Shown here: in pieces, positions 41,189 through 60,766 of the stretch
How positions within the stretch are numbered: the first letter of the stretch is position 1
Layout of the letters: the number at the start of each line of letters is the position of its first letter
Assembly: GCF_000018025.1 (NCBI RefSeq)
Contig: NC_009831.1
Span: 4,836,001 to 4,900,000, forward strand
DNA length: 64,000 nt
Reading direction: 5' to 3'
Source of the DNA: Shewanella sediminis HAW-EB3
Lineage (GTDB): Bacteria; Pseudomonadota; Gammaproteobacteria; Enterobacterales; Shewanellaceae
Position numbers and translations under genes: made by a program
The notes under the pieces: generated by a model
The model's input: the letters and a program-made list of their open reading frames with translations, nothing else
Databases searched by the model: none
Told to the model about the DNA's origin: nothing

Positions 41189-41270
41189 CTTTCAGCTCTG
41201 CATTAGCCAGCCTAAAAGGAAGCTAAACCCGCATCAATGTTGAAGCAGATAAAGAGAAAGAGAAAGGGAT

Positions 41271-41304
41271 AATGGAGTGCTTTTATATGGGCTCCATTAC
41301 TTTT
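41271..41304 (+). terminator. Terminator of the porin gene
   Basis: AATGGAG / CTCCATT with a 14-nt loop, followed by ACTTTTATTT. Confidence 0.6.
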
Positions 41305-41336
41305 ATTTATAAGCAAAATAGAGACAAATTTCAGGC

Positions 41337-41363
41337 ATAAAAAAACCTGCTCAAAGGCAGGTT
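41337..41363 (-). terminator. tRNA-type terminator, copy 1
   Basis: AACCTGC / GCAGGTT, with the T-run on the reverse strand. It lies 43 bp beyond the 3' end of the tRNA fragment, where a tRNA-Leu terminator would be, and recurs at the other two repeats. Confidence 0.8.
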
Positions 41364-41406
41364 CTTATCTCTCAAACGAGAGTTTCTCTAATAAAGAGTA
41401 TTTGAT

Positions 41407-41459
41407 TGGTACCGGAGGACGGACTTGAACCGTCACGCTCGAAAGCAACGGATTTTGAA
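41407..41459 (-). repeat. tRNA-Leu(CAA) 3'-half fragment, copy 1 (attachment-site remnant)
   Basis: On the reverse strand it runs from the anticodon loop TTCAAAA through a long variable arm, the T-arm GACGG-TTCAAGT-CCGTC, the acceptor strand CTCCGGT and A-CCA. The anticodon is CAA and the long variable arm fits leucine. The 5' half (D-arm, acceptor 5' strand) is absent: identity to a real tRNA ends in the anticodon stem. This is what remains when an element integrates into the anticodon region of a tRNA gene. Confidence 0.85.
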
Positions 41460-41640
41460 AAGACCACCTCTGAAAATACTCAGTAATATCAATAAATAAA
41501 AACAACAAAAAGCACCTTTGCAAATTCTTTGCAAGAACAAGCGTTTCTCATTGTAATGGAATAATAAGCAAACAAATCGAACGTCACAACATCTCAAATG
41601 CACTGCATGTCTATCTTCTGAATAACAGTACATATAATGT
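41460..41640. repeat. Element-end sequence, copy 1
   Basis: About 180 bp shared with the same position at the other two tRNA fragments. It includes a perfect inverted repeat TTGCAAA-TTC-TTTGCAA at 41517-41533. It probably holds recombinase arm sites. I see no gene up to 41719. Confidence 0.7.
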
Positions 41641-41719
41641 TCAACACATTAGTAGATAATTCCATTGATAGAGATGGGAGAAATCCATTTCCCCTGGGGT
41701 CACGCTTTGGGAAGTCGGT

Positions 41720-43105
41720 CTACTTCTTAAAGACTTCAGGTAATTGGTATTGGTTTTTTAATACTGCTTCACTTGGTTCATACAAGCGCATGTGAAGATA
41801 GAAATCGTCTTTAGGAGCGGGTAACCAGTTACAGTTGGCTTCGGTTGGTTGCTTATGTTGGATGCACAGGGTTAACGTACCGTTCCGGTTATAAACTAGT
41901 TCGTCAGGTCGATTGCTTGAAATGGAGTAACGATCAATTGGATTTTCAATCATATAGAGATCTTTCGCATCATACATGGTCACTGACCAAAACGCTTTTG
42001 CTGGTGCATCTGCAGGCATAGTCATTCTGTATTCATACTTACCATCTAATTGTTGCTCATTAGAATCGGTATAACGGTTTGGATACAGGGCTCTCTCTTT
42101 GGTGTTTAGGCCTGCTGCTCTAAAGTTAATACTGGCACGACTGAGGTAGTCTGTTTCATATACACCCCCTTCATACATCATCGACCAGCCGTTATTTTTA
42201 ACGCCTAAGTCACGACCTGCATATGAGATTATTTGCTGTGCAGAGCTCAATGCGCGCATCAGGCCACGCTTTTGCGCTTCAGATAGGTTCTCCTCATCGA
42301 ACGGTTGAGCCTGTCCAATATTGATGTACTTGAACTGATCTACAATGGGTGAATCTGATGATATCGGATTATTACGTAGCTCCTGGTCAATGAGTTTGTA
42401 CCAATCCAGCCCTTCAGGCCGGGTCATCGGAGGGATGCCACCCGTTGCTTGACTTAGCTGTACAGGCTCTTGAGGCTGGCCTAGCTGAGTTAACGGGTAG
42501 TTAATAAAACCAGCATTTACCTTATTCGCCGCTTTTAAGTCTCGCTCTCCTGCAACGCCAACTCTTTGAATATACCAGACGAAAGGTGTTCTAGATTCAA
42601 TTACTCTGTCAATATCTTCAGGGACATCCCCCTGCCATCCTTTATTGACTAACAGAAATTTACCGCCTTGAGTGCCGACATTTTCGGTAATTAAATTCTC
42701 GACCGATTCGGTATAATTATCCAATAACTGCACGATGAAATAACGGTTATCTGTCACTGGTACTTCAATCACCAATGGCCCAGTCTCATTTAGGTTGATG
42801 TGTGACTGAGAATAGAGTGTATCGTTATTGACGGTCGGTACAATTCTGGTTTCAGGCCCCGAAAGCTTAAGGGTTTTCCCCATCTGATTCATTGGAGCCA
42901 TGCCATTATTCAGCGGGACAGATGTTGTAGTGGATGTCTTTCTCACTTGTGAGGTTGTTAACGGACCCGCACCATATATAAAAGCCTGAATACCTAAGTT
43001 GTAGGCTAGCTCCTCTTCAGGATCAATTGTGTTTGCCGTTACTGCTGACGTGCTAAATACACTCATTGCAGAGCAGATAAGTGGATAGAGAATTCGTTTC
43101 TTCAT
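41720..43105 (-). CDS. DUF1254/DUF1214 exported protein A
   Basis: A 461-residue protein with a signal peptide (cut near TAVTAN). The N-terminal DUF1254 half includes NDTLYSQSHINL and VPVTDNRYFIVQLLDNYTE, and the C-terminal DUF1214 half includes FWSVTMYDAK and NWLPAPKDDFYLHMRLYEP. These families are widespread, exported and of unknown function. It is the first gene inside element 1 and is divergent from the radical SAM gene. A paralogue lies at 45722, and both may act on products of the sulfatase. Confidence 0.9.
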   Translation of the reverse strand: MKKRILYPLICSAMSVFSTSAVTANTIDPEEELAYNLGIQAFIYGAGPLTTSQVRKTSTTTSVPLNNGMAPMNQMGKTLKLSGPETRIVPTVNNDTLYSQSHINLNETGPLVIEVPVTDNRYFIVQLLDNYTESVENLITENVGTQGGKFLLVNKGWQGDVPEDIDRVIESRTPFVWYIQRVGVAGERDLKAANKVNAGFINYPLTQLGQPQEPVQLSQATGGIPPMTRPEGLDWYKLIDQELRNNPISSDSPIVDQFKYINIGQAQPFDEENLSEAQKRGLMRALSSAQQIISYAGRDLGVKNNGWSMMYEGGVYETDYLSRASINFRAAGLNTKERALYPNRYTDSNEQQLDGKYEYRMTMPADAPAKAFWSVTMYDAKDLYMIENPIDRYSISSNRPDELVYNRNGTLTLCIQHKQPTEANCNWLPAPKDDFYLHMRLYEPSEAVLKNQYQLPEVFKK

Positions 43106-43346
43106 AGTAAGCCTTGCGTAGTTAATGGCGATGGCCTGAGTGTATGAGACAAGGCTTTAAAAATGTTAAATAGTGAATATCAAGAATCTTAATACTGCGA
43201 ATTACACCATATAAACCCATGTTTTAAAACGGATAAACATGCAGGGCATTGACACTTAAATCCGATGAAATAGCTGAGGTGTTTTCAGGCTATTGTGACA
43301 GACTTTATTAATCTCTATTTTAAAATAAAGATGTTTGGAGACCTGT

Positions 43347-44498
43347 ATGAATCACCTTAATTTACCGTTTAGTTTGTTCATTAAATCTGAAGGAGCAAAA
43401 TGTAATTTAGATTGCAGCTATTGCTACTACTTAAACCACTTAGATGAAGCAGATAAAAACTGCTCAATGAGTGAAGAGTTAATGGGACAATTGATAAAAG
43501 AGCACATAAAATCACAGCCAAATAAAGCGGAAAAGGTCGATTTCATTTGGCATGGCGGTGAGCCAATGCTTCGGGGGTTGGAGTTTTACCAAAGCGCAGT
43601 AAAGAAACAGCATGAGTCGACGACCCGAAAGGTGGTGATGAACACCATGCAAACTAACGGCACCTTGATTAATGAACGCTGGGCACAATTCTTTTCTGAT
43701 CATAACTTCATGTTGGGGGTCAGTATCGACGGCCCCAATCTGCTTAACGACATTGCTCGGGTCGATAAGAAAGGTCACTCCTCTTTCGAGCGCACCATGC
43801 GCGGCATAAAGCATCTTAAAAACTTCAATGTTGAGTTTAATACCTTAACCGTAGTGAATAATAAAACCTATCGCCACGCCAAGCATATCTATCCATTTTT
43901 GAAAGAAGCTGGCAGTGGTTATATGCAGTTTCAACCTTGCGTCGATCATGAACTCGATAGCCGTTCAGAGTACAACTGGTCGTTAACAGGAAAGCAGTGG
44001 GGCTTGTTTCTCTGTGAGCTTTTTGACCTCTGGAGCGAAAAAGATGTAGGCAAAGTTTATATCCAGTTTTTTGAAAACTGCTTGATGATATTGATGGGCT
44101 ATCAAAGCCAGATGTGCCACCACAGTAGGACCTGTGGCCAGCAGTTGATGGTTGAAACCGATGGATCAGTTTATAGCTGCGATCATTATGGTTATGACGA
44201 GTTCAAGCTCAGTAACAGCGAGTCCAGCTTAAAAGCGATGGCAAACAGTGAGAGGCAAGTTACCTTTGGCGCGGCAAAATATGAAGCATTGAGTAACAAG
44301 TGTCGCGATTGTGATTTTCTCGACATATGTAACGGCGGCTGCCCTAAAAATAGAACGCTAAAAACAGTACAAGGTGAGAATCATAACGTGCTTTGCGAGG
44401 GTTACGAGATCTTTTTTAAACATGCTTTGCCTAAGATGCTGTCGATGGTCGATGCGATGAAACAGGGCTATTCACCTGCTTTCTTCCCCATTTTTTAA
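43347..44498 (+). CDS. Anaerobic sulfatase-maturating enzyme (radical SAM)
   Basis: A 383-residue radical SAM/SPASM protein. The SAM-cluster motif CNLDCSYCYY is at about residue 18, followed by WHGGEPMLR and SIDGP. The C-terminal part has CGQQLMVETDGSVYSCDHYGY and CRDCDFLDICNGGCP for two auxiliary clusters, as in anSME. The enzyme converts the active-site Ser or Cys of sulfatases to formylglycine, without oxygen. I set the start at 43347 (MNHLNLPFS), where GGAG lies 7 bp upstream; a longer frame begins at 43335. A sulfatase with a matching Ser-type motif is encoded 2.7 kb downstream. Confidence 0.92.
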   Translation: MNHLNLPFSLFIKSEGAKCNLDCSYCYYLNHLDEADKNCSMSEELMGQLIKEHIKSQPNKAEKVDFIWHGGEPMLRGLEFYQSAVKKQHESTTRKVVMNTMQTNGTLINERWAQFFSDHNFMLGVSIDGPNLLNDIARVDKKGHSSFERTMRGIKHLKNFNVEFNTLTVVNNKTYRHAKHIYPFLKEAGSGYMQFQPCVDHELDSRSEYNWSLTGKQWGLFLCELFDLWSEKDVGKVYIQFFENCLMILMGYQSQMCHHSRTCGQQLMVETDGSVYSCDHYGYDEFKLSNSESSLKAMANSERQVTFGAAKYEALSNKCRDCDFLDICNGGCPKNRTLKTVQGENHNVLCEGYEIFFKHALPKMLSMVDAMKQGYSPAFFPIF

Positions 44499-44601
44499 AC
44501 ATTTGGTAGCGAGTAAATATCGGCAATCCGGCATTTATCAATAACATGAGTATGTTATAGCGGCAAAATGTTCTTATAATGAATTTTTAAATGGAATCGT
44601 A

Positions 44602-45507
44602 ATGGTTGTCATGTCGAACGATTATAATTTATTGCGCTTGCTATTGGTCTTAAATGAAACAAGACAAACAGTGCAGGCCGCCAAAGCTTTAAATGTGAGT
44701 CAGCCAACCATTAGCGTTATGCTGAAAAAGCTACGTGAGCAGTTTAATGATGAACTGTTCGTGCGCAGTAAAACTCAACTTGAGCCCACACCAAAGTGTT
44801 TAACGATCATTGCTAAACTACCGGACTTACTTGAGCAGATGGAACAGTTGTACTTAGATGCAGAGGTGTGGAATATTGCCGATATGTCTGGCGAGCTCAA
44901 GTTGCTGCTTCCCTCCCCATTGATGGCTGTTATCGGTGCGCCGCTTATTGGTAAGCTTACTAAGCTCGCCCCTAAACTCACCGTTGAGTGTGCTCATTGG
45001 GGCCACAATGCCGTACAACTGCTAGAGCGCGATCCTAAAGCTTGGGGAATATCTTACTTGCCGATGGATACCAATAAGGTTTTATATCAGCGTGACCTTG
45101 GTTACGACAAGTTCATGTTAATTATGCGTAAAGGCCATCCGCTTCAAGACAATACGCTTACCGAAGTTCTCAACTATCCAATCTGCGTTAATACTATTCC
45201 AGGTTACACTGAGCCCTCAAAGGCTGAAATGCTGATTAAGAAATATGACCTCGATGGACATATCAACTTGCGCTGCAGTGACATGAGCATGATGCTCAAA
45301 CTGGTTAAAGACAGCGATTTTATCTGCGTGGCTACTGAAAAATGCGCTACTGTACTGGGGAATGATTATCGCTATGAGGCGTTACCTAGAGAGCTTTATA
45401 AGGATACCTTCAGACGCTCGTACGCCTTATTTACCCATCAACGAAATCGACATAATCCATTAACGGACTGGCTAGAGCATGAAATCTTAGCCTTAATGAA
45501 CGAATAG
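44602..45507 (+). CDS. LysR-family regulator of the sulfatase island
   Basis: A 301-residue LysR protein. Its helix-turn-helix (AAKALNVSQPTISVMLKKLREQF) lies in residues 20-60 and the substrate-binding domain follows. It resembles the NodD/LeuO-like subgroup by its short first helix and LELTP-like phrase (QLEPTPKC). It is co-oriented with, and lies between, the anSME gene and the DUF1254-sulfatase operon, so it likely controls them. The ligand is unknown; ATG at 44611 is an alternative start. Confidence 0.88.
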   Translation: MVVMSNDYNLLRLLLVLNETRQTVQAAKALNVSQPTISVMLKKLREQFNDELFVRSKTQLEPTPKCLTIIAKLPDLLEQMEQLYLDAEVWNIADMSGELKLLLPSPLMAVIGAPLIGKLTKLAPKLTVECAHWGHNAVQLLERDPKAWGISYLPMDTNKVLYQRDLGYDKFMLIMRKGHPLQDNTLTEVLNYPICVNTIPGYTEPSKAEMLIKKYDLDGHINLRCSDMSMMLKLVKDSDFICVATEKCATVLGNDYRYEALPRELYKDTFRRSYALFTHQRNRHNPLTDWLEHEILALMNE

Positions 45508-45721
45508 CATAAAATCTAGCCCTTCAAATTCGCATGCGCCGATGATTTTCAAGGCTTAAATCGGTACGGCGCAGGCTCCAACTCTCCCCTCCAATAAGCT
45601 GTAACTCCTATATTTACTGCCAGTTCTCCCCATCTATTCAGGCTATTAAATAACGTAATAATCACTATCACCCCTTTTTTGTCCGTTTTTATTTATCGTT
45701 TAAAAAAAACGGAGAAACACT

Positions 45722-47143
45722 ATGATTAAAAGCCATTTAGCTAAAGTCGTACTGGCTATCGCCATTGCAACGTCACCAGTTTGTTATGCAGAGCAAAGTT
45801 CGCAAAATACTCAGTCAGAACAGACGTTAACCATCCAACAAAGTTTACTCGGTGAAACCTACAGCTTAGGTGTAAATGCCTATCTGTGGGGTTCAGCATT
45901 GGTAAGAATGGAGCAGATCTCCCGCCAATATACCGACATCAGCTCGCCTCAAGCAGATACCAGTTATCGCGCTCCCTTAAACGAGTTTGGACACGCCAGA
46001 AGACTCAGTTCACCAGCAGACAAAGACATGCCAACGGCGAACCGGGATACCTTGTACTCGAGTGCAGTATTGGACGTTTCTGAGGAGCCAATCGTACTAT
46101 CCGTGCCAGATGTTGAAGATAGATACTTTGTCATCAACATGTTTGATATGTGGCACAACCTATTTCAATACGTTGGTACTCGTGAAACTGGCAGCCTCGC
46201 TAAAGAGTTCCTAATCGTGCCACCGGGCTGGAAAGGGGAAGCGCCTCGCAACACTAAAGTGATCGAAGCACCGACAGACAAAGTCTGGTTATGGGGCCGT
46301 ACACAGGTCTTAGGTGAGCAAGACTATGCCAATGTACATGCCGTACAAGACAAATATGAGATCACACCATTAAGCGAGTATTTAGGTCGACCAGCCAAGC
46401 AAGTCGCTACCGAACTTAGCGCGCGCCCAGGGCAAGAGGAGGATGCGCTACGCTTCTTCACTGAGCTGGCGGAGTATGTCAAACAAAACCCGCTTGATGA
46501 GCGCCAACAGGCACTCTTTGGTCAGTTTGAAAAGATTGGTTTAACTAAGCAAGGTTTTGACGCCACTAAACTATCTCCTGAAATGCAGCAGGTGTTGGTG
46601 CAAGCCATGACTGATGCCCAGCAGATTATCAGTGCTCAAGTGGCGAACCCGAACACGCTGGAAGTCAAAGATGGCTGGTTCTACGCGTTTGAGCTCGATG
46701 ATTTCGGTGATGACAACGCCTTAAGATCACTGGTTGCCGGACCATACCTTGGTGGGCAAGGTCCAAACGAAGCTATCTACCCAATTACCTACACCGACGG
46801 TAAAGGCAAGCCTCTTAATGGTGGTCAAGGCTACAAGATGAGCTTTGATAAAGCCCCACCAGTAGGTGCTTTTTGGTCACTGACGGTATACGACGCCAAA
46901 ACCAAACTCTTGGTCAGTAATGAGATAAAGCGTTACAGCGTCAATAACCTCACCGATCTCGATAAAAACGCCGATGGCTCATTCGACATCCATCTACAGC
47001 ATGACAACCCCGCAGGAAACAAATCCGCTAACTGGTTACCGACGCCAGAAGGCAATTTCTATGTACTCGCCAGGCTCTACATTCCATCGAAAGAGATCCT
47101 TGAGATGAAGTGGACAGTCCCTGCGATCCAAAACCTTAAATAA
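45722..47143 (+). CDS. DUF1254/DUF1214 exported protein B
   Basis: A 473-residue paralogue of the protein at 41720, with a signal peptide (cut near PVCYAEQ). It keeps ANRDTLYSSAVLD and VPDVEDRYFVINMFDMWHN in the DUF1254 half and FWSLTVYDAKTKLLV with NWLPTPEGNFYVLARLY in the DUF1214 half. The start has a GGAG ribosome site (ACGGAGAAACACT). The sulfatase gene follows after 39 bp, so the two are an operon. The function is unknown; the pairing suggests a periplasmic step tied to sulfate-ester breakdown. Confidence 0.9.
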   Translation: MIKSHLAKVVLAIAIATSPVCYAEQSSQNTQSEQTLTIQQSLLGETYSLGVNAYLWGSALVRMEQISRQYTDISSPQADTSYRAPLNEFGHARRLSSPADKDMPTANRDTLYSSAVLDVSEEPIVLSVPDVEDRYFVINMFDMWHNLFQYVGTRETGSLAKEFLIVPPGWKGEAPRNTKVIEAPTDKVWLWGRTQVLGEQDYANVHAVQDKYEITPLSEYLGRPAKQVATELSARPGQEEDALRFFTELAEYVKQNPLDERQQALFGQFEKIGLTKQGFDATKLSPEMQQVLVQAMTDAQQIISAQVANPNTLEVKDGWFYAFELDDFGDDNALRSLVAGPYLGGQGPNEAIYPITYTDGKGKPLNGGQGYKMSFDKAPPVGAFWSLTVYDAKTKLLVSNEIKRYSVNNLTDLDKNADGSFDIHLQHDNPAGNKSANWLPTPEGNFYVLARLYIPSKEILEMKWTVPAIQNLK

Positions 47144-47182
47144 CGTTTCTCATTACTCAGTTAAATAGATCTAGGAGCCATT

Positions 47183-48736
47183 ATGGTTAACAAATTAACC
47201 AAGTCAGCGATCGCCTTAGCAGTTGTTGCCTCTAGCGGTGTGTCAGCAGCATCAACTCAGCCTAACGTCGTTGCCATCATGTTAGATGATGTCACCACCA
47301 TGGATATCTCCGCATATCACCGCGGCTTAGGTGCAGTCAGTACGCCTAATATCGACCGAATTGCCGAGCGCGGCATGATGGTGAGTGATTACTATGCTCA
47401 AGGCAGTTCAACTGCGGGTCGCTCTGCCTTTATCACTGGCCAATATCCTATTCGAACCGGCTTAACCTCTGTTGGACAACCGGGCTCGACCCGCGGCCTG
47501 CAAAAAGAGGACCCGACCCTAGCGGAAATGCTCAAAGACAAAGGCTATGCCACCGTACATGTGGGTAAGAGTCACCTGGGTGATAACAATGACCACCTAC
47601 CAACTGTGCATGGCTTTGATGAGTTCTACGGCTTCCTCTATCACCTCAACGTGATGGAGATGCACGAGCAGCCGGAGTTTCCTAAAGATCCCAACTTTAA
47701 GGGGCGTGGCCGCAACATGATCCATACTGTCGCGACCGATAAGTTTGACGACACCGTCGACCCACGTTTTGGTGTGATCGGTAAGCAAACCATTAGCGAC
47801 CAAGGTGAACTGGGAGCTAAGCGGATGCAGACTGTCGATGGTGAGTTCTTAGATTTTGCTATCAACTGGCTAGAAAAGCATGAAGCAACGAATGACGACC
47901 AGCCATATTTCATGTGGTACAACCCAACGCGTATGCACCAGAAAACCCATGTGCGCCCTGAGTATCAAGGTGCTAGCCAACATAATACCTACTATGACGG
48001 TTTAGTTGAGCTCGATGATCAAATTGGTGTGCTTCTCGACAAGCTAGAAGCGACCGGAGAGATAGACAACACCATCATCCTATTTACCTCCGACAACGGT
48101 GTGAATCTGGACCATTGGCCTGACTCCGGAGCGGCGTCTTTCCGTGGCCAAAAAGGTACCACTTGGGATGGCGGCTTCCGCGTACCAATGTTAGTGAGCT
48201 GGCCAGCCAAGATCCCTCAAGGAGAATATACCGATGGTTTGATGTCTGCCGAAGATTGGGTGCCAACGATTATGGCTGCGGCGGGTGACGCGGATATCAA
48301 GCAAGACTTGCTAACAGGCAAGAAGATTAACGACGAAACCTACAAGGTGCATATCGATGGTTATAACCAACTGGATATGCTGACTGAGGGTGGCAAGAGT
48401 AATCGACATGAGTTCTTCTTCTATAACGAGAATAGCTTAAATGCATTCCGTGTTGATGAGTGGAAAGTACACCTTAAAACCAAAACCGAATGGATTGCCC
48501 CTGCAGATGAGTGGCCATTGGGCATGATCCTCAATATTAAAGCGGATCCGTTTGAGCGCTCTCCTGATACCCGCGGTTGGTTCCTCTGGATGAAAGAGAA
48601 GACTTGGGTACTGCCAAAGCTACTTAAAGCAGTTGGTAAACATCAGCAGTCACTTAAAGCCTTCCCTCCTCGTTTAACAAACGGCGGCATTGGTATGAAC
48701 GACAAGTCTGTCGTTGAAGAAAAGAGCAACAAATAA
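47183..48736 (+). CDS. Ser-type sulfatase (formylglycine-dependent)
   Basis: A 517-residue exported sulfatase of the alkaline-phosphatase superfamily (S1). The signal peptide is cut near VSAAST. Metal ligands D35-D36 (MLDDV) are followed by the modification motif S76-T-A-G-R80, then SAFITG, the S-x-A-x-R form served by anSME. Downstream, KSHLGD and LFTSDNG complete the active site. The match of a Ser-type motif with an anSME gene in the same island is strong functional support. Hydrophobic sulfate esters are plausible substrates given the FadL-like channel, but the sequence does not decide this. Confidence 0.93.
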   Translation: MVNKLTKSAIALAVVASSGVSAASTQPNVVAIMLDDVTTMDISAYHRGLGAVSTPNIDRIAERGMMVSDYYAQGSSTAGRSAFITGQYPIRTGLTSVGQPGSTRGLQKEDPTLAEMLKDKGYATVHVGKSHLGDNNDHLPTVHGFDEFYGFLYHLNVMEMHEQPEFPKDPNFKGRGRNMIHTVATDKFDDTVDPRFGVIGKQTISDQGELGAKRMQTVDGEFLDFAINWLEKHEATNDDQPYFMWYNPTRMHQKTHVRPEYQGASQHNTYYDGLVELDDQIGVLLDKLEATGEIDNTIILFTSDNGVNLDHWPDSGAASFRGQKGTTWDGGFRVPMLVSWPAKIPQGEYTDGLMSAEDWVPTIMAAAGDADIKQDLLTGKKINDETYKVHIDGYNQLDMLTEGGKSNRHEFFFYNENSLNAFRVDEWKVHLKTKTEWIAPADEWPLGMILNIKADPFERSPDTRGWFLWMKEKTWVLPKLLKAVGKHQQSLKAFPPRLTNGGIGMNDKSVVEEKSNK

Positions 48737-48743
48737 CCATGGC

Positions 48744-48763
48744 AGGTGCGCTCAAGCGCACCT
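48744..48763 (+). terminator. Stable hairpin between sulfatase and barrel gene
   Basis: AGGTGCGCT / AGCGCACCT with a tiny loop, followed by CATTCTT rather than a T-run. It may attenuate transcription into the downstream genes or stabilise the upstream mRNA. Confidence 0.45.
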
Positions 48764-48790
48764 CATTCTTGATTTACAGGGGATCTATCG

Positions 48791-49429
48791 ATGGTTAACA
48801 GAACATTACCGGCGCTAATGGCACTCGTGATTTCACAGCTTGTTTACGCTGAAGAGCCAGCTGATATGACTGACCCTATGTCGGTCTATACCGGTGGCGA
48901 AATTGTAGCGGGCAACAAGGGGCTGGGCGCGACGTTTCAGTTTGGTATTTCCAAAGGGGATTGGGGTGCACTAGGTAAGTTAGAAACTAAAAATAACTTC
49001 GAAAACTATCGGGTACGTTTTTTTACCCCAAATAAGAAAACCGGCACCGGACTTTTTATCGATGCCGGACATGATTTTTCAGTCGATGGACTCACGAGTA
49101 ACTACGCTACAGTTGGGGTGATGCAGGTCTTCCCACTTTCCGACAAGGTTAAATTATACAGTGCATTAACCTACGGCAAGAGTTGGGAGGCAAATGACCA
49201 ATTCAGAGAAACTCGCATTATATCCAGTGTCAACTACTTCAAATATGACTTTGCCGAAAAGTTCTTTTTACAGATCGCACCGCAATACAGCTACGGCTTA
49301 GATGGTGAAGAAACAAGAAAGTTTTCCGCTGAAGTTCAAATTGGTTACAAGGTCGATCAAGACAACGTTGTAGTGATCACGGGTGATAGTGATAACAACG
49401 CCTGGATAACGTATCGCGCCCGATTCTAA
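48791..49429 (+). CDS. Small outer-membrane barrel-like protein
   Basis: A 212-residue protein with a signal peptide (cut near LVYAEE). The mature chain alternates polar and hydrophobic residues in strands about 10 long and ends ITYRARF, with a terminal Phe; it fits an 8- to 10-strand barrel. I do not recognise a named family. It lies 54 bp after the sulfatase gene and before an RND pump operon, so it may be the outer-membrane part of the island's transport set. The ribosome site is GGGGATC. Confidence 0.7.
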   Translation: MVNRTLPALMALVISQLVYAEEPADMTDPMSVYTGGEIVAGNKGLGATFQFGISKGDWGALGKLETKNNFENYRVRFFTPNKKTGTGLFIDAGHDFSVDGLTSNYATVGVMQVFPLSDKVKLYSALTYGKSWEANDQFRETRIISSVNYFKYDFAEKFFLQIAPQYSYGLDGEETRKFSAEVQIGYKVDQDNVVVITGDSDNNAWITYRARF

Positions 49430-49569
49430 TGAATAACGTTATGTCACGTAAGACTGTTAAGCCTGTCTCTTAATTGCACGCATTCATAAGGCCGCAGGTA
49501 TTAGATGGTCAATCTTGGCATGACTACCCACATCCTCCACACCGTAAAGGGTGGAGTTTGGAGCAAGAG

Positions 49570-53600: not shown

Positions 53601-53747
53601 GTACTTGGCATGATCCCATTGATTTTTGACGGCTTTTTCCAGGCTATGGCTGTTGCCATTATGTCGGGCCTCACCTTCGCCACGATATTAACCCTCATCG
53701 TGATCCCTGTGATGTACACCATGATCCATAAAATCAAAGCGCAGTAG
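50670..53747 (+). CDS. RND-family efflux pump (AcrB/HAE1-like)
   Basis: A 1025-residue inner-membrane proton-driven exporter, full length. It has the standard 12 membrane segments in two groups around large periplasmic loops. The TM4 segment has GALIIALGMLVDNAIVVVE with the expected acidic residue, and TM10-TM12 repeats the pattern (LSGMLIKNAIVLVEEI). Coupled to the adaptor gene upstream. No TolC-type channel is encoded nearby, so a housekeeping TolC would be needed. Drug and organic-anion efflux are both possible. Confidence 0.93.
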   Translation: MDTNTEKQGSGIAGFFIKNAVISWLIMVLLGVGGYFAFQDLGRLEDPEFTPRSAMIVTSYPGASAQQVEEELSLPIENALQQLPYVKYIKSVNTAGLSQVEVMMESQYTGKYLPQIWDEVRRKIGDLKGLPPGADKPTVNDDFGDVYGMIWGISGEGYSYAELESYADYLRREVVTIEGVSKVSVAGTQQQQVFIELSRRKLAALDIPVSHIESLLALQNVVSNAGRIRVQNDTIRLSPTGEFSSVSELKNLVVSPKGSDARIYLNDVADISTGYAKTPIKIMTINGQPALEFGVSFLRGQNVIAVGERINTLIDSLEKVRPIGMELELIYNQPEQVEQAVDGFVISLIQAVAIVIFVLLLTMGLRSGFIIGTVLILSVMGTFMAMEQMAIDLQRISLGALIIALGMLVDNAIVVVEGILIGMQRGKSRFDAAVEIVKQTQWPLLGATVIAVTAFAPIGLSEDISGELVGSLFWVVLFSLTLSWITAITITPFLADRLFKNVKVAKDGEFIDPYKGVIFTSYRVLLQGCIRYRKTTMLLLIVLLLGSVKGFGMLKNEFFPPMNLPKFMVDTWLPYNSDINATAEHMRKVEEAVLAHPEVEQVSSSIGGGHVRFMLAYKPEKLYNNYGNLLITVKDIDRLKEVMSDVEEIVEQGFAGATYNFKRFEMGPAPDGRVEARFVGPDPDVLRSLSAQAKAIMERSQDASAIRDDWRERTKVIRPQFNDAAGRSLGISKAQVDGVLLANFSGRTVGLYRDGSDLLPIIIQPPEQERLDIGGISELQIWSHELSQYVNLGQVLKEVLVEFEDPVIMRRDRKRTIMAMTDESPMGSSTTASVLNSFKAEVEAIELPEGYNLTWGGKYESSRDAMIALSEKLGGGYLVMVLITIFLFASYKDAAVIWTVVPFALIGVVVGLYFANMPFTFLALLGTMSLSGMLIKNAIVLVEEIKLQLSQGKEAYLAVVDASVSRVRPVSMAAVTTVLGMIPLIFDGFFQAMAVAIMSGLTFATILTLIVIPVMYTMIHKIKAQ

Positions 53748-53773
53748 TACTGCGCTAATTGAGTGAGTAGAAA

Positions 53774-54889
53774 ATGAACAGAAGTAAAATCCTTTTAGCA
53801 CTCTCTGCAACTGCAGTGATAAATACAAGTAGCGCCATGGCTGCAGGGCTTAGCCTGTCTCAAATCGGCACCGCTGACAGTGTGGCAACCGCTGGGGCTG
53901 CAGGAGTCACCAATAATTCCGATGCAGCAGCAACCATCACTAATGCGGCAGGTTTATCAGGGATAGAAGATTCAAATATGATGCTGGGTGGTCAGTTGTT
54001 AGATGTGCGCTCTCAATTTGAACCTAAAGAGGGCGAGAGCACGCAGAGCAATGGCTTACAGTTTATCCCGCATCTGTCATATGCCAAACGGCTCAATGAA
54101 GATTGGGTGGCTGGCATAGCGCTTCACTCGCCCGGTGGCTTAGGTGTTGCTTACAGTAATGGTATTGCCGGTGGCGCGCAAAATATCGTAAAAGAGAACA
54201 AAATAACCATGCTAAGCCTAACTGCTTCAGCAGCCTATCAAATTAATGAACAACTCGCTTTAGGCGCCAGTATCATCACCAATTATGCCGGCGTTGAAGC
54301 CTCAGTGTTCGATCGCACCGTGACTGGCAAACAGTTGGCACCCACGTTTGCACTTTCGGCTCAATATCAACTGAATGAGAAAACACGCATTGGCGCAAAC
54401 TATCAACATGGTAGCGAACACGATATCGAATTTGACGAAGCACTTCTCGGCATTCAAGGCATGGCCATCAATTGGCCGGCGACGTTTGACATTGGCATAG
54501 ATCACCAGCTTACCGAGCAATTGAACATTATGGCGAATGCCAAATGGCAATCTTGGAGTGACTACGATGCTAATTATCAAGACACCTACTCCGCAGGTAT
54601 CGCTGCCGGGTATCAAGCGGGTCACTGGCTGTGGCAGGCGGGATTTAGCATTGATAGTAGCCCTGTCGATGCCGAGTATAGAGACATTGTATTACCGCTC
54701 GATAAACAATGGCGATTAGGAATTGGCGCTGAAAAAACCTTAGCTTCAGGAGCTAAATTGGGGATAGCCTACCAATATCAGAACCTAGGTGATGCCGAGA
54801 TAATTTCCCAAGGGAGAGAGCTGCTTCGTCCATCAGGAGAGTACAGCGAGAATCGGGTGCACTTCATCACTTTATCTTATCAATTCTAA
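53774..54889 (+). CDS. FadL/OmpP1-family outer-membrane channel
   Basis: A 371-residue protein of the FadL family, which brings hydrophobic compounds across the outer membrane. It has a signal peptide (cut near SSAMAAG) and the family opening LSLSQIGTADSVATAGAAGVTNN, matching the FadL hatch (G-A-G-x-A). It ends in FITLSYQF with the terminal Phe. It is 27 bp after the RND gene, so it is probably in the same transcript. FadL homologues in islands often take up aromatic or lipid-like substrates. Confidence 0.88.
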   Translation: MNRSKILLALSATAVINTSSAMAAGLSLSQIGTADSVATAGAAGVTNNSDAAATITNAAGLSGIEDSNMMLGGQLLDVRSQFEPKEGESTQSNGLQFIPHLSYAKRLNEDWVAGIALHSPGGLGVAYSNGIAGGAQNIVKENKITMLSLTASAAYQINEQLALGASIITNYAGVEASVFDRTVTGKQLAPTFALSAQYQLNEKTRIGANYQHGSEHDIEFDEALLGIQGMAINWPATFDIGIDHQLTEQLNIMANAKWQSWSDYDANYQDTYSAGIAAGYQAGHWLWQAGFSIDSSPVDAEYRDIVLPLDKQWRLGIGAEKTLASGAKLGIAYQYQNLGDAEIISQGRELLRPSGEYSENRVHFITLSYQF

Positions 54890-54898
54890 TTGCCGGCA

Positions 54899-54977
54899 AG
54901 CCGAAGGACGGTATGACTACATGACTTCGGCTTATCAAATTTCAGACATAAAAAAACCTGCACAATGGCAGGCCTTT
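54899..54977. terminator. Two terminators: end of FadL gene and tRNA-type copy 2
   Basis: AGCCGAAG / CTTCGGCT (54899-54932) has no T-run. CCTGC / GCAGG (54957-54973) has an A-run before and CCTTTTTA after it, so it works both ways. It corresponds to the terminators at 41337 and 59372. Confidence 0.7.
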
Positions 54978-54986
54978 TTACTTGAT

Positions 54987-55039
54987 TGGTACCGGAGGAC
55001 GGACTTGAACCGTCACGCTCGAAAGCAACGGATTTTGAA
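54987..55039 (-). repeat. tRNA-Leu(CAA) 3'-half fragment, copy 2 (attachment-site remnant)
   Basis: Identical by eye to the fragment at 41407 over the full 53 bp, from CCA to the anticodon loop, and broken at the same base. Direct orientation relative to the other copies. Confidence 0.85.
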
Positions 55040-55262
55040 AAGAGAGCGCCTAAAAATACTAAGCAATATCAATAGTTAAAATCGCACAAAAAGACCTTTG
55101 CAAATTCTTTGCAAGAACAAGCATTTCTCATTGTAATGGAATAATAAGCAAATAAATAGAACGTCACAATATCTCAAACAAACTCTATGTCTATCTCCAG
55201 AGTAACAGTAAATACTGGTACTGCCGCTTCGTGCTGTATGGTAAATGACACGCCAAAGCCAC
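55040..55262. repeat. Element-end sequence, copy 2
   Basis: About 220 bp, similar to copies 1 and 3, including the TTGCAAA-TTC-TTTGCAA inverted repeat. Its last 45 bp (CTGGTACTGCCGCTTCGTGC and on) match only copy 3. Nothing else is seen up to 55429. Confidence 0.7.
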
Positions 55263-55429
55263 AAAGAAAACAGATCTGAATGAGGCTATTTTAACGGAGA
55301 GTTACAGATGGATGGTGTCGGCCTTCATACATCTAAATTAAACATCATAATGTGGACCTCCGGACAGTTGTCAAAGAAGCGGCGCTCAAAATGAGCGCCG
55401 CTTATGATGACCCTATTCTAATTCAAACA

Positions 55430-57394
55430 CTACTTGCTCACGTGACAAGTAATGCAAGAGTAGGGGTCCGGGAAGGTTTCGCTGGTGTGCCAGTCGCTGT
55501 TGCCACGGGTCAACTGTTTGCTTGCAGCCTGTTGTCCATAAGTAGTACCGTTGTGGCGGTAGAGGTCCAGCATATCCTTGGTTGTAGGATCCTTCGACTT
55601 CACGACATCGGCGCAGGGGCCCATTTCACCGTTAAGCTCGTTAGCCCTTTGAGTGACACCAAAACACTGCACTTTATCGAAGGGGAAATTCTTTGAAGCA
55701 TCGCCGTGATTGAGCATCAGCTTGTCCTTGGAGTGACAGAAGTGGCAGCGCGCCACAGCGCCGTGACCGGCAGGAGCACCGTTGCCGCCGTGACAAGAGG
55801 CACAAAAGTAAGGCTCGGTGCTGTCAGGCAGAACCGGCGAGTCCCCGCCTTCGAGATGGGTATTAGTCAAGCCATGACATAGGCCACAGTCAGCAACCCC
55901 CCAACCAAAGTGAGTGCTTTCAAGAGGGGCTGCCGCCTCGGCAATATCGTATATAGGGTACAGACCATTATCAAAAGCATTGTGCTCGGTCATCTCATAC
56001 TTGGATCCATAGTCCGAGCTAATCCAATACATTTGGACGAACTCCTTAGGGTTCACCATCACCGAGATATCGGCGGTGCGATGGAGGCTAATGCCACCAT
56101 ATCCCGAATACCACTGGTCGATGCACTCCTGGGCTGTGGTCTCATCCAGCTTGCCACTCTCATCGCGCAGGAAGTGGCAGATGGTCTTGCTATCGTAGGG
56201 AGCGGTGCCATTGACCAGTTCACCGGCCTTGGGCCACGCCGGGCCGTTGAAGAAATCCACCGCGGACTGGCCTTCACCGGCAACCCAGCCCCAGCCGCTG
56301 AACCCTTCGCTTCCGTTGCGCAGTCCTTCGACCTGGGTAATGATGTAGGCGTCAATCGTCGCGCCGGTGGAGAGGGTGGGCCAGTAGCCAAAGTGAATGT
56401 CGACGCCATACTCATGGTGAGCGGTCATCAACGCATCCATCAAGGTGATCACCCCAGGCTGGTACACGTCGGGGCGCAGGTTGTAGGCCTTGACCTCGAA
56501 GTTACTGGCCGGGAATTGAGGGGCACGCCGGCCGTCAAGATAGGACAGGCTCAGACTCGGCAGGATCACCTTGCCACCGTTGGCTTTCAAGCGATCAGCC
56601 TCGGCCCGCTGCATCTGCTTAACACGATCTCTCATCGCTTGGGAGACCGGCTGGAAGCGGATGTTCATCTCCGGCTGCACCCAAAATTCATCCAGGCGCT
56701 CGTAAAGGGTATCGAGAATTGGGTTGGCAATTTTAAGGTTGTCACCCTGATCATAAGTATAGGATGCGTACCAGTTCTCGCTGTCCTGGTAGTCCCCTGC
56801 GGCGACGTCATCGAAGTCACCGTCGCCGTTGGCGTCGAAGGAGACGGTGAAGTCGTAGGTGTTGAGATCGGTGTTGAACTCCCCTAGTGTGACTTCCAAA
56901 TCACCACGGATAGATGACACATACAGCATCACGTCCAGGATGGAGTATTGGCCGGGAACGAAGATGTCTTCACGGATAGAGGAAGTACCAAGGTAGGCTT
57001 TTATGTCATCGGAGTGGACCTCCATGTAGTACTTGCCATCGTCGCTGGTACTGGCGTTGTAGTACTTGTTTTTATTACGATCGTTTACGTCCTTGGGCTT
57101 ACCATAGGTGCCGGTCTGGCTACCTGTAGTCGGCAGTTCATAATCCGTCGGCATTTCATCGGCGCACATCTCCGGATGATCGTCGGTGCAGGGATACCAG
57201 CGCCCCAGATAGACCCGAACCAGGCCGTCAAATTGCCTATTTGGCTCTACATGCACATCCAGGTTGTCATAAATGGGAGCCGGAGTAGGTTGCTCTGGCG
57301 TCGACGGCGGAGTAGAGCTGTCCGAATCGGAGCCGCAACCGGCCAAGCCAATAGCGGATAATACCGCTAAGGCGATTAGTTTTTTCATCATCAT
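55430..57394 (-). CDS. Four-haem cytochrome c lipoprotein with large unknown N-terminal region
   Basis: A 654-residue lipoprotein: signal MMMKKLIALAVL, lipobox LAGC (Cys20), then a Ser/Pro-rich linker. Residues 60 to 495 have no domain I know; they are Asp/Tyr-rich with alternating strands. Four CxxCH haem motifs sit in the C-terminal quarter at residues 503 (CGLCH), 531 (CASCH), 550 (CHFCH) and 647 (CITCH, four residues from the end). The lipid anchor suggests an outer-membrane or surface location, as for MtrC/OmcA, but those have ten haems. A LuxR-type gene lies 24 bp upstream on the same strand. The gene looks GC-richer than its surroundings. A haem-carrying reductase or electron conduit is the likely role. 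Confidence 0.8.
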   Translation of the reverse strand: MMMKKLIALAVLSAIGLAGCGSDSDSSTPPSTPEQPTPAPIYDNLDVHVEPNRQFDGLVRVYLGRWYPCTDDHPEMCADEMPTDYELPTTGSQTGTYGKPKDVNDRNKNKYYNASTSDDGKYYMEVHSDDIKAYLGTSSIREDIFVPGQYSILDVMLYVSSIRGDLEVTLGEFNTDLNTYDFTVSFDANGDGDFDDVAAGDYQDSENWYASYTYDQGDNLKIANPILDTLYERLDEFWVQPEMNIRFQPVSQAMRDRVKQMQRAEADRLKANGGKVILPSLSLSYLDGRRAPQFPASNFEVKAYNLRPDVYQPGVITLMDALMTAHHEYGVDIHFGYWPTLSTGATIDAYIITQVEGLRNGSEGFSGWGWVAGEGQSAVDFFNGPAWPKAGELVNGTAPYDSKTICHFLRDESGKLDETTAQECIDQWYSGYGGISLHRTADISVMVNPKEFVQMYWISSDYGSKYEMTEHNAFDNGLYPIYDIAEAAAPLESTHFGWGVADCGLCHGLTNTHLEGGDSPVLPDSTEPYFCASCHGGNGAPAGHGAVARCHFCHSKDKLMLNHGDASKNFPFDKVQCFGVTQRANELNGEMGPCADVVKSKDPTTKDMLDLYRHNGTTYGQQAASKQLTRGNSDWHTSETFPDPYSCITCHVSK

Positions 57395-57418
57395 TACTCG
57401 ATTTTAGTTAGTAGGAAC

Positions 57419-57976
57419 TCAGGCAAGCCAGCCTTGCTGCATGGCCAGGAAGACCAGTGCGGATCTATTGCTGGCACCCAAGGTTTTTTTCGCTATATCG
57501 AGGTGGTAGTCGACACCTCGACTAGACAGAAAGAGGGCATTGGCTATCTCTTTGGTGGTGAAACCCAATGCGGTCAGTTTTACAATGGTTTTGGTGCGGT
57601 CGTTGAGCTCTTCCGTCTGTCCCTGCTGCAGAATAAATGGCAGAACCATGTCATGAAAATAATGCTTAACTTCGTCGATTTTTGGGCAGTGAATTTGGTT
57701 AAAGATCAGGATCAGATACCCTTGACTAACCTGGGCGCTGTAAACTCTCTGACCCTGTATCTGCTTGTCATTTGTCAGACCGAAGTGAAAGGCTGCGCTT
57801 TTTTCAGAAGCCACAATAATGCATGCGCTTTGTCGCAAAGCCGGAGCCGACACGTAGATGTTGCTGTATTCAAACCGGGAATCAAACTTGAGATCCCAAG
57901 GGCTCATTTCGCACGAGATATGCTGCGACAGGCCGCAATGCTTTGACTGATAAAAGATCCAACCGCTTGGCAGCAT
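57419..57976 (-). CDS. LuxR/GerE-type regulator next to the cytochrome gene
   Basis: A 185-residue protein with a C-terminal GerE helix-turn-helix (LTALGFTTKEIANALFLSSRG, then VDYHLDIAKKTLG). The N-terminal 110 residues do not look like an autoinducer-binding or receiver domain I can name. Same strand as, and 24 bp before, the four-haem lipoprotein gene, so it is likely a co-transcribed regulator of it. A CRP-like box lies about 180 bp upstream. Confidence 0.82.
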   Translation of the reverse strand: MLPSGWIFYQSKHCGLSQHISCEMSPWDLKFDSRFEYSNIYVSAPALRQSACIIVASEKSAAFHFGLTNDKQIQGQRVYSAQVSQGYLILIFNQIHCPKIDEVKHYFHDMVLPFILQQGQTEELNDRTKTIVKLTALGFTTKEIANALFLSSRGVDYHLDIAKKTLGASNRSALVFLAMQQGWLA

Positions 57977-58150
57977 GAGCCGTCCCCCCCATTAATAATG
58001 TAATCAGAAAGTAATTAAAAAGTGTGGAAAAATTATAATTGATTACCGGGAAATCGAGGAGTGATGGCCGTTGGGTTTGTTCCAAGTCTGTTCATAAGTG
58101 AAAAAAATTGTGAACAATTCGTCCTTATACGAGAGGAAGGGGGTATTCTT

Positions 58151-58166
58151 TGTGACAAAGGTCACC
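58151..58166. promoter_or_regulatory. CRP-type site upstream of the LuxR-cytochrome genes
   Basis: TGTGA-CAAAGG-TCACC matches TGTGA-N6-TCACA at nine of ten positions. In Shewanella, CRP drives anaerobic respiration genes, so CRP control of the four-haem protein is plausible. The rest of the 353-bp spacer (57977-58329) has no gene. Confidence 0.5.
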
Positions 58167-58245
58167 ACAAATAATGAGCGGCGAGCAGATTGTGGAACAC
58201 CCGTCCAGGCTGGTATTTGCTTTTCTCTGTACGGTAAATTTATAG

Positions 58246-58281
58246 TGCACACTTAATCGCAAGATGTGCAAGGTGTGCAAG
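58246..58281. promoter_or_regulatory. Operator-like repeats before the TetR gene
   Basis: TGTGCAAG occurs twice, 9 bp apart (58265 and 58274), with its partial inverse TGCACA at 58246. They lie 50-85 bp before the TetR gene and may be its autoregulatory site. Confidence 0.35.
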
Positions 58282-58329
58282 TAAGGCAATCACTGCATTA
58301 CGTAGTACCTTAAGCCATAGGAGGAGAGG

Positions 58330-59082
58330 ATGGGTAAGTATCGACAGCAGGTGTTGAAAGCGGCGCGAGAGTTGATCATCGAAAAGGGGCTATTCGAGTT
58401 TTCAATGCGTGATCTAAGCAAGGTCACCGGACTGTCGGTGGGCAGCTTGTACCGGGAAGTCCGCAATAAGGACGATCTGTTGCTGCTGGGAGCCGCCGAA
58501 AACATTCGAAGGCACGGATTGGGTTTGAACCAGGTAAAGACGTTGGGGCTGAATAGCGCCGAGCAGATATTGTTTCAGATTGGCTTTGCCCCCTACTGTA
58601 TAGACTTTGTTGACATGGACAGCGACAACATGGGCACCAACTTCCTGCTTAACAACTGTGACTTGGTTAGTAGAGCTACTCCCAAGACAGTGGCGGAGCT
58701 CCAAGCCTATTTCCTGCAGTATCGCCAGCAGGTGGTTGATTTGGTTGACGGCCTGATCGATGAGCAGGCATTTTCCAATGGCAAAGCCCAGGTAATGGAG
58801 GTGATCGCCGATCTGTCGATTCTCTGTCGCGGTACTCGGGTGTTACGCGTGATGCGCACCAATATTATGTTTCGTCCCAATTTAGTGCCGACAGAGAAGC
58901 TTTGTCAACTCGGGGAGTTGATTCTTCGTCAGCTTGACTGGAACATTGACGGCCCGCTGTTAGATCCGAAAAAAATGGATCTGGCATGGAAAACAGCTAT
59001 GGATCAGAGCCAAATGCTCTCGATGTCGTTGAAAAAAAAGGCTTCATATCGAATATCCGGGAAATGTAGCTCGGATTTTTAA
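58330..59082 (+). CDS. TetR-family regulator of element 2
   Basis: A 250-residue TetR protein with the N-terminal helix-turn-helix (MGKYRQQVLKAARELII, then FSMRDLSKVTGLSVGSLYREV) and a helical ligand domain. AGGAGGAGAGG precedes the ATG, a very strong ribosome site. It faces away from the LuxR-cytochrome pair. The ligand is unknown. The C-terminal tail is basic and short of structure (KKKASYRISGK). Confidence 0.88.
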   Translation: MGKYRQQVLKAARELIIEKGLFEFSMRDLSKVTGLSVGSLYREVRNKDDLLLLGAAENIRRHGLGLNQVKTLGLNSAEQILFQIGFAPYCIDFVDMDSDNMGTNFLLNNCDLVSRATPKTVAELQAYFLQYRQQVVDLVDGLIDEQAFSNGKAQVMEVIADLSILCRGTRVLRVMRTNIMFRPNLVPTEKLCQLGELILRQLDWNIDGPLLDPKKMDLAWKTAMDQSQMLSMSLKKKASYRISGKCSSDF

Positions 59083-59371
59083 GATGAAAGTCGTTGCTAT
59101 CCCTGTATCCATAGGTCATCCGCTTTATGACCTAGTTAATGAATCGAGTCAGTCTCAAGGTTTTGCAATAGCTTGGCGAACCATGTGGTAACCACCTCAC
59201 GATTGTTAACCCTACCTAAAACTAGCTACTCGCAGGGTACCATTTACCCTGTGACCCAGCATGAAGACCAAGATAAATGATCTCTGCAGTTACCAAAAAT
59301 CATGCAAAGATAACGATACGTAACGGCAAGAAAATAGAGGGGTTATTTCGTAGGTTTACTGAATTTCAGGC
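59083..59371. other. Gene-free stretch after the TetR gene
   Basis: About 290 bp with no credible frame, tRNA or clear hairpin before the copy-3 terminator. Confidence 0.5.
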
Positions 59372-59398
59372 ATAAAAAAACCTGCTAAAAAGCAGGTT
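59372..59398 (-). terminator. tRNA-type terminator, copy 3
   Basis: AACCTGCT / AGCAGGTT with the T-run on the reverse strand, 25 bp beyond the tRNA fragment's 3' end. Confidence 0.8.
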
Positions 59399-59422
59399 CT
59401 TCCTTTCCCTAATAAAAGGGAT

Positions 59423-59475
59423 TGGTACCGGAGGACGGACTTGAACCGTCACGCTCGAAAGCAACGGATTTTGAA
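59423..59475 (-). repeat. tRNA-Leu(CAA) 3'-half fragment, copy 3 (attachment-site remnant)
   Basis: Same 53 bp as the copies at 41407 and 54987, with the same break in the anticodon stem and the same orientation. It marks the left end of the third element, which holds dsbL, dsbI and assT. Confidence 0.85.
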
Positions 59476-59698
59476 AAGACCACCTCTTAAAATACTCAGT
59501 AATATCAATAAATAAAAACAACAAAAAGCACCTTTGCAAATTCTTTGCAAGAACAAGAATTTCTGATCGCGATGAAAAAACAAGCAAATAAATCGAACGT
59601 CACAACATCTCAGACAAACTCTATGTCTATCTCCAGAACAACAGTAAATACTGGTACTGCCGCTTCGTGCTGTACGGAAAATGGTACGCCAAGGCCTC
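59476..59698. repeat. Element-end sequence, copy 3
   Basis: About 220 bp. The first 90 bp are closest to copy 1 and the last 70 bp to copy 2, which hints at recombination between copies. It contains the TTGCAAA-TTC-TTTGCAA inverted repeat. Confidence 0.7.
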
Positions 59699-59746
59699 TT
59701 AGACCTAAATGAAGTAATTGCAATGGCTTAATCGGGAGATATCAAA

Positions 59747-60505: not shown

Positions 60506-60632
60506 TTCGCTCCCCCCAATCAAATCCTTATTTAATAAATGAACGATTGCTCAGTATTTATCAAGGGAAGAAGGCGGAACTGTGACAGGCCTCGAGACCG
60601 TGTTAGCAATTGAGATGTAAGGCTTTTCCAGG

Positions 60633-60648
60633 GGTGACTGTTGTCACT
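60633..60648. promoter_or_regulatory. CRP-like or TetR operator palindrome before dsbL
   Basis: GTGAC-TGTT-GTCAC is a perfect palindrome. Extended by one base at each end, GGTGA-CTGTTG-TCACT matches the CRP consensus at eight of ten. Midway between the TetR and dsbL starts. A second, weaker box (ATGAT-TGTT-ATCAG, 60716-60729) resembles FNR sites at eight of ten. Confidence 0.4.
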
Positions 60649-60766
60649 TTATTGCAGTGTAAAGTTTTCCCTCCTGCAGTAAATTCCATCACAAAAAAGA
60701 TCCTCAATAAAAAATATGATTGTTATCAGGAACTCACTCTCCTGTTAATCAATATTTGAGGAAAAT

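Follow-up and report, generated by a model that had tools for sequence, protein, structure and literature searches.

How does one half of a transfer RNA gene come to stand three times, in the same orientation, in a single region of a bacterial chromosome? This question is raised by a stretch of 64,000 bp from Shewanella sediminis HAW-EB3 (contig NC_009831.1, positions 4,836,001 to 4,900,000 of the forward strand; hereafter the window, in whose coordinates positions are given), which contains three copies of the 3' half of a tRNA-Leu(CAA) gene. We consider it likely, with a probability of about 0.88, that serial integration of elements with a tRNA-Leu(CAA)-cutting tyrosine recombinase built a stack of four blocks, termed Z, A, B and C, at this gene. 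Compared with the empty site, the resulting island extends from ~33.83 to ~65.08 kb and thus measures ~31 kb. As far as genome comparison reaches, it demonstrates the site specificity and the boundaries of the blocks, reveals sites in the genus that are empty, filled in part or filled with other blocks, and shows that all three attachment arms of the window contain remnants of a dead recombinase gene.

Three identical tRNA halves and an intact gene

A preliminary description of the window had reported three 53-bp tRNA-Leu(CAA) 3' halves in direct orientation. Alignment bears this out: all 53 bases are equal among copies 1 to 3, which lie in phase on the minus strand (blastn E value of 2.6e-24 per copy), and their similarity is not due to chance. 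Each half comprises everything from the 7-nt anticodon loop, TTCAAAA, through the CCA. The copies are indeed broken at the same base, but the cut lies at the 5' edge of the loop and not in the anticodon stem, where it had been placed. The tRNA-type terminator past the CCA side of every copy was also recovered (repeat family D2). Shared sequence beyond the break is present as described, with a measured length of 166-212 bp instead of 180-220 bp and a pairwise identity of 86.7-88.0%. ARAGORN found no whole tRNA in the 64-kb window; an unbroken gene at one of the three positions had been named among the observations that would refute serial integration.

In a search of the whole S. sediminis genome (5,517,674 bases, one contig) seven matches were obtained at an E value of 0.01. 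At least 50 bp of the 3' half were found at four places only, namely at the three copies and at an intact tRNA-Leu(CAA) gene ~1.1 kb past the window end, while the remaining three matches were 33-bp stretches within other tRNA genes. The intact gene sits where serial integration predicts it and thereby defines a third block, C, from 59423 to ~65076. The preliminary description had overlooked this gene, block C and the probably older fourth block Z. The terminator stretch at copy 2 (54937-54990) is nearly equal to that past the intact tRNA (~65030-65080), and those of copies 1 and 3 differ. An acceptor-stem mismatch was considered as a sign of a chimeric tRNA at this locus and dropped, because the empty-site genome G123 (genomes are denoted by our handles) matches both halves.

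Attachment arms and the recombinase family

In relatives, the stretch past the break leads into a gene for a tyrosine recombinase of 423-427 amino acids, which is transcribed away from the attachment (att) site. When four such recombinases were scanned with Pfam, three matched PF00589 (E values of 1.2e-8 to 1.6e-8); for the fourth (G124) the best match was weak, to a recombinase SAM-like domain. The identities of the other three scanned proteins to the first were 94, 88 and 64%. Full-length genes occur in 19 relatives of the genus; in 16 of these 19 copies a tRNA-Leu 3' half precedes the start of the gene by ~96-130 bp. All three arms of the window end in dead 5' pieces of this gene, of which the piece at copy 1 is shorter and was seen in translation.

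A Pfam Phage_integrase scan of 12 genomes pointed to no recombinase near the array, but its first filter missed the 427-amino-acid family in relatives too; the scan was dropped as evidence for absence, and the recombinase protein itself was used as query. This protein search found no intact recombinase of the family in S. sediminis, its matches being confined to remnants in two arms and a C-terminal scrap at contig position 2382008. The stack is thus probably immobile in this genome. The remnants at copies 2 and 3 have a stop at codon 4 in common, and the start codon is lost in copies 1 and 2. C-terminal scraps far from the tRNA gene were seen in S. sediminis (G000:C1:2382008-2382133) and in G016 (G016:C53:22458-22937), both ~1 kb from a paralogue of the cytochrome-like gene of block B.

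Between the recombinase gene and the core a repeat, GCAAAGAATTTGCAAAG, is found. It is exact in 22 of 27 arms and present with at most two edits in all 27, this set comprising 39 sites minus 11 rows with an intact tRNA and one extra half (G030_b). Its distance to the core is 55-61 bp in 26 arms and 90 bp in one. The repeat may represent an arm-type binding site.

With a profile of the recombinase nothing was retrieved from solved structures at an E value of 0.001, and none of 50,697 phage records matched. Among plasmid records there was one partial match, from Alteromonas (59% identity, 77% of the query covered), besides eight distant matches. The partial match lies at CP004847.1:191389-192370 (Alteromonas mediterranea 615), with no listed gene beneath it. 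Within the order, matches at an E value of 1e-20 were found in 14 of 394 sampled genomes and 7 of 114 genera, counting fragments and the S. sediminis remnant. In other genera some cores lie in 3' halves that resemble tRNA-Leu(CAA) or tRNA-Phe and begin with TTCAAAA or TTGAAAA (the tRNAs being named from the loop); in three of nine other-genus loci (L110, L111, L113) no loop of either type was found beside the recombinase gene. At L112, L118, L114 and L119 the recombinase relatives adjoin a tRNA-Phe-like half starting with TTGAAAA. Given these tRNA-Phe-like halves, the choice of target may depend on a single base of the 7-bp loop.

Empty and differently filled sites in the genus

For comparison across the genus we used two anchors, the M50 peptidase gene (present in 127 of 129 genomes) and a 225-amino-acid gene beyond the tRNA (125 of 129). 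Sites were assessable in 71 of the 129 genomes, where both anchors face each other on one contig within 150 kb. In the others the anchors were on different contigs (29), farther apart or in another order (23), or one was absent (6). Eleven of the 71 sites are empty, with an anchor gap of 830-1099 bp (sequence read in G123). The gap is enlarged to 2.4-94 kb in the other 60, an assignment by size that does not claim family elements for each, and amounts to 32.0 kb in S. sediminis. Since the M50 anchor ends at 33822 and adjoins the tRNA in empty sites, the island begins at ~33.83 kb and includes block Z (33.83-41.33 kb); the region left of copy 1 was accordingly dropped as a candidate for old chromosome. 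Sites that are empty, partly filled or differently filled support the earlier proposal of serial integration at one tRNA gene and extend it.

Block Z is missing between the M50 gene and the tRNA or att site in G010, G123, G041, G028 and others. It was found alone in G117, and also in G016, G044 and G059. In G059 an att copy with an arm stands at the far end of Z (L049:5956-6117), a counterpart of which was not found in S. sediminis. Z is probably the oldest block. Block A is present as a whole in G010 (S. atlantica HAW-EB5), with 92.8% nucleotide identity over 13.2 kb and 90.1% in the flank, and could be vertically inherited between the two species. In that genome the block borders on the peptidase gene, and a recombinase-bearing element of 27 kb comes next. 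In G016 (S. canadensis HAW-EB2) Z precedes a recombinase-bearing element, and a different contig holds a block that retains 157 codons of the recombinase as a remnant and has the tRNA after it. G028 contains a C-like block, two truncated cassettes with a Fic gene (see below) and a recombinase-bearing element. The C-like blocks of G028 and G001 adjoin the M50 gene. For the main gene of block B, relatives at an E value of 1e-40 occur in 10 genomes, S. sediminis included; the closest (82%) is in G010, ~30 kb away on the opposite side of the tRNA.

Complete elements replace the host tRNA gene

In G010, G028 and G068 the host tRNA gene ends after TTCAAAA and is followed by the element end and then by a whole tRNA-Leu(CAA). 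This element end, or right arm, is ~135 bp long and has GCAAAG repeats of its own. Of the 19 genomes that have a full-length recombinase gene, 17 show a split host gene together with a whole replacement (sequence read in these three and 12 more, coordinates used for G044 and G006). Rejoined, the host halves read as tRNA-Leu(CAA) in all 11 genomes tested. Between replacement and host tRNA there are 16/85 differences in G068, 20/85 in G063, 11/85 in G124, 2/87 in three genomes and none in five.

A search with the right arm at an E value of 0.001 gave matches in 6 of 129 genomes: G010, G028 and G068 at 93-100%, a partial match in G063 and two short ones. In G016 the sequence upstream of the near tRNA is host-like and the terminator is of the element type, which fits an origin in which the two 5' halves recombined and the right arm was lost. 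The S. sediminis blocks may be either collapsed complete elements or arrivals in the form of 3'-half cassettes. Two complete elements that were sampled carry anti-phage defence genes, and no conjugation, mobilization or virion domain was recognised in 20 chosen proteins of these two, a subset of their open reading frames (ORFs). In G028 (L045:5454-7047) a broken second integrase gene (PF00589) and a gene with a reverse transcriptase domain stand directly beside the replacement tRNA.

Cassettes without a recombinase

The tRNA-Leu(CAA) site of several species holds a 1.4-kb Fic cassette that has an arm of ~75 bp and no recombinase. In G041 (S. hanedai) it is the sole content between the anchors, and in G094, a metagenome-assembled genome, it lies beside the tRNA with other DNA beyond. 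The cassettes of G041 and G094 are 90.6% identical, compared to 71.6% for the adjacent chromosomal DNA. The corresponding values are 89.5% (flank 70.2%) against G028 and 88.4% (flank 71.0%) against G074, whose cassette matches without the far end; for G001 the cassette alone was compared (87.2%). At an E value of 1e-5 the recombinase has matches in 26 genomes, and G041, G074 and G094 are not among them. The distribution of the cassette would be accounted for best if it had moved horizontally into the same site, either with a recombinase acting in trans or by transfer from a recombinase-bearing donor. Block C, which is 81.0% identical to its counterpart in G028 with a flank of 71.9%, appears to point the same way.

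One may generalise this to the idea that tRNA-Leu(CAA) in Shewanella is a chromosomal docking platform for exchangeable cassettes. Such cassettes, lacking a recombinase and consisting of cargo, in some cases a single gene, with one ~75-bp arm and a 3' half, would be moved between species in trans by the recombinase of helpers that replace the tRNA and so make the host dependent on the tRNA they supply. We offer this tentatively and give it somewhat less than an even chance.

Layout and cargo of the island

The features of the locus are collected in Table 1. The preliminary description had stated that the cargo differs between the copies, and indeed the genes of blocks A and B are unrelated according to Pfam. 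Block A also has an NCBIfam match, TIGR03942, with a score above the family cut-off. Past the window end block C encodes a 260-amino-acid protein without a Pfam match, after which the intact tRNA-Leu(CAA) comes next.

Table 1. Features of the stacked island and of its left anchor, in window positions unless a contig is named.
Feature	Position	Strand	Basis and remarks
M50-family peptidase gene, left anchor outside the island	32650..33822	+	PF02163; adjoins the tRNA in empty-site relatives, e.g. G123
Block Z: LysR regulator, molybdopterin oxidoreductase with Fer4 and NrfD subunits, Gcw_chp protein	33831..41326		Pfam
Terminator-like hairpin and T run past the CCA side of copy 1	41327..41366	-	Repeat family D2; counterpart downstream of the tRNA in G117
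tRNA-Leu(CAA) 3' half, copy 1, far att site of block A	41407..41459	-	Sequence comparison
Left att arm of block A	41460..41690		TTGCAAAGAATTTGCAAAG repeat (complement) at ~41515-41535; decayed recombinase 5' end from ~41567 (ISKQIERHNIS..LHVYL)
Block A cargo: two DUF1254/DUF1214 proteins, anaerobic sulfatase maturase, LysR regulator, sulfatase, HlyD/AcrB-type efflux pair, FadL-type porin	41720..54889		Pfam
Terminator-like hairpin and T run past the CCA side of copy 2	54938..54977	-	D2; type matches the one downstream of the intact tRNA
tRNA-Leu(CAA) 3' half, copy 2	54987..55039	-	Sequence comparison
Left att arm of block B	55040..55296		Repeat at ~55095-55115; recombinase remnant 55147-55296, codons 2-51, in-frame stops
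Block B cargo: 654-amino-acid protein with 4 CXXCH motifs, LuxR-type regulator, TetR-type regulator	55430..59082
Terminator-like hairpin and T run past the CCA side of copy 3	59362..59401	-	Repeat family D2
tRNA-Leu(CAA) 3' half, copy 3	59423..59475	-	Sequence comparison
Left att arm of block C	59476..59710		Repeat at ~59531-59551; recombinase remnant 59583-59702, codons 2-41, in-frame stop
Block C cargo: TetR regulator, DsbA-like protein, DsbB family protein, arylsulfate sulfotransferase (PF05935)	59747..64000, on to ~65.0 kb
Intact tRNA-Leu(CAA)	G000:C1:4901077-4901161, window-equivalent ~65077-65161	-	~1.1 kb past the window end

Alternative explanations

The stack could also stem from a tandem duplication of one insertion, with its tRNA half and att arm, after which ordinary recombination would have replaced the cargo that the copies enclose. 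Such an origin would agree with the direct orientation of the three copies and their matching arms and terminators, with the 88.1% identity between the arms of copies 1 and 3, and with the shared stop and the lost start codons of the remnants. Recent local duplication was tested by the arm identities and is disfavoured by them: within S. sediminis the arms are 82.5, 82.5 and 88.1% identical, which is barely closer than their similarity to six arms of other species (73.8-85.6%, mean 82.7%, 18 comparisons). As arm identity among four elements with a recombinase (G010, G016, G028, G068) is 90.6-95.0%, the arms of S. sediminis look older or decayed. Moreover, other species hold related blocks singly or in a different order at the site, and the recombinase remnants stop at different codons. 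We regard duplication as very unlikely.

Exchange of the tRNA region among cells by homologous recombination, through transformation or conjugation, deserves more weight and is nevertheless an unlikely main route. The halves would then provide homology only, and a site-specific enzyme would play no part for the recombinase-less blocks. The 3' half and the terminators do supply ~100 bp of homology, S. sediminis is without an intact family recombinase, and block A and its flank are about equally similar to G010 (92.8 and 90.1%). On this route one would have to accommodate a Fic cassette that is 88-91% identical between flanks of 70-72% and outer terminators that differ among hosts. Every far end starts at the same 7-bp loop, and the first insertion is left unexplained. 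Least credible of all, with hardly any chance of being correct, is an integron-like or tycheposon-like array driven by an unrelated recombinase. Arrays of recombinase-less cargo at a single site do resemble integron cassettes, and tycheposons (PMC10872708) are likewise cargo elements bordered by tRNAs and equipped with a tyrosine recombinase. In Shewanella, however, the recombinase lies inside the complete elements beside the att core rather than at a platform of its own, and it is to this family that the block arms correspond. The other listed Phage_integrase genes of S. sediminis are at least 140 kb away, which proves little since the scan had missed the family in relatives.

Several observations weigh against serial integration by the tRNA-cutting recombinase and have to be set beside the evidence for it. 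A short-match search did not find the 3' half beside the recombinase in 3 of the 19 loci, and G016 and G051 carry the recombinase and no split tRNA gene. The arms of copies 1 and 3 are slightly closer to each other than the window arms are to the six arms from other species. Near terminators of the cassettes vary and look host-like, and the model explains them incompletely. A detached 5' half and a right arm were not found in S. sediminis, the complete form being known from relatives only. G010 carries A without Z, so that the insertion order differs among species. Finally, block B, sought in 129 genomes, was not found at the tRNA-Leu(CAA) site of any other species.

Proposed course of events and its significance

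In the scheme that we favour, a tyrosine recombinase of the family would cut within the 7-bp anticodon loop TTCAAAA of tRNA-Leu(CAA). Every insertion would leave the displaced 3' half and the left arm of the element at the far end, while the near end would keep a working tRNA gene that is open to further insertion. Four insertions, Z and then A, B and C, would give the 31-kb stack. The 5' half and the right arm may have been lost by recombination between identical 5' halves, as G016 suggests, or the blocks may have entered as 3'-half cassettes. The order of events, the entry of Z by the same route, and movement in trans before or after loss of the recombinase are what we infer from the comparison.

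A single site offers a natural deletion series, from complete elements down to one-gene cassettes, on which one can directly test how small an att site may be and whether a recombinase is needed in trans. It also reveals an apparently non-phage element family that breaks the tRNA gene of the host and substitutes its own, some of the replacements being quite unlike the host's. Because both sampled complete elements carry anti-phage defence genes, the site is a place to seek new defence systems.

Relation to known systems

A limited search of the open-access literature did not bring up a recognisable combination of tRNA-replacing elements with stacked recombinase-less cassettes. Judged by title or abstract start, none of the papers that it retrieved on Shewanella genomic islands at tRNA-Leu dealt with this array.

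Integrons have a fixed platform integrase and attI/attC cassettes, whereas the site here is a tRNA half. Closer parallels exist among elements that accumulate behind one RNA gene. Dehalococcoides ssrA islands lie in tandem behind one RNA gene, with direct repeats of the 3' end of that gene at their borders, and 15 of them, which have no integration module, have been proposed as cis-mobilizable (PMC3146451). The Shewanella stack resembles them in its tandem order, its 3'-end repeats and its module-less members. It differs in that Dehalococcoides uses a serine recombinase and tmRNA; the Shewanella elements have a tyrosine recombinase, sit at the tRNA-Leu(CAA) anticodon loop and, where complete, carry a whole replacement tRNA. 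Accretion of integrative and conjugative or integrative and mobilizable elements, for example at streptococcal tRNA-Lys, leaves cis-mobilizable elements (CIMEs), decayed elements that still have att sites but no recombination genes and that lie in tandem arrays with their relatives (PMC7563491). Blocks A, B and C likewise retain att copies, the right arm not being found, and Pfam scans of their main ORFs gave no recombinase or transfer domain. Unlike CIMEs, the Shewanella elements include phage defence in their cargo, their smallest intact cassette has one gene, and no conjugation or mobilization domain was recognised in the 20 chosen proteins of two complete elements.

The replacement of the host tRNA recalls the tRNA-dependent lysogeny of mycobacteriophages, in which the tRNA gene is split and a whole copy supplied (PMC10865867). 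Splitting of the host gene at a short core together with a copy of the same isotype was seen in the 17 relatives and not in S. sediminis. The mycobacterial agents are phages, while the Shewanella integrase had no counterpart in the phage records and two sampled elements carry defence genes. In Sinorhizobium meliloti, as described in PMC11476347, a host tRNA was substituted in a prophage-related manner by one resembling that of another species; the replacement is common to both cases, the hosts there being alphaproteobacterial and the sequences prophage-related. With classical tRNA islands (Islander, PMC4383910) the locus shares a split target gene whose displaced fragment marks the far end. 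S. sediminis shows the three 3' direct repeats on the far side and the intact gene on the near side, relatives provide the empty site, and the recombinase gene inside the island is reduced to remnants. Unlike classical islands, the complete Shewanella elements bring an entire second tRNA gene.

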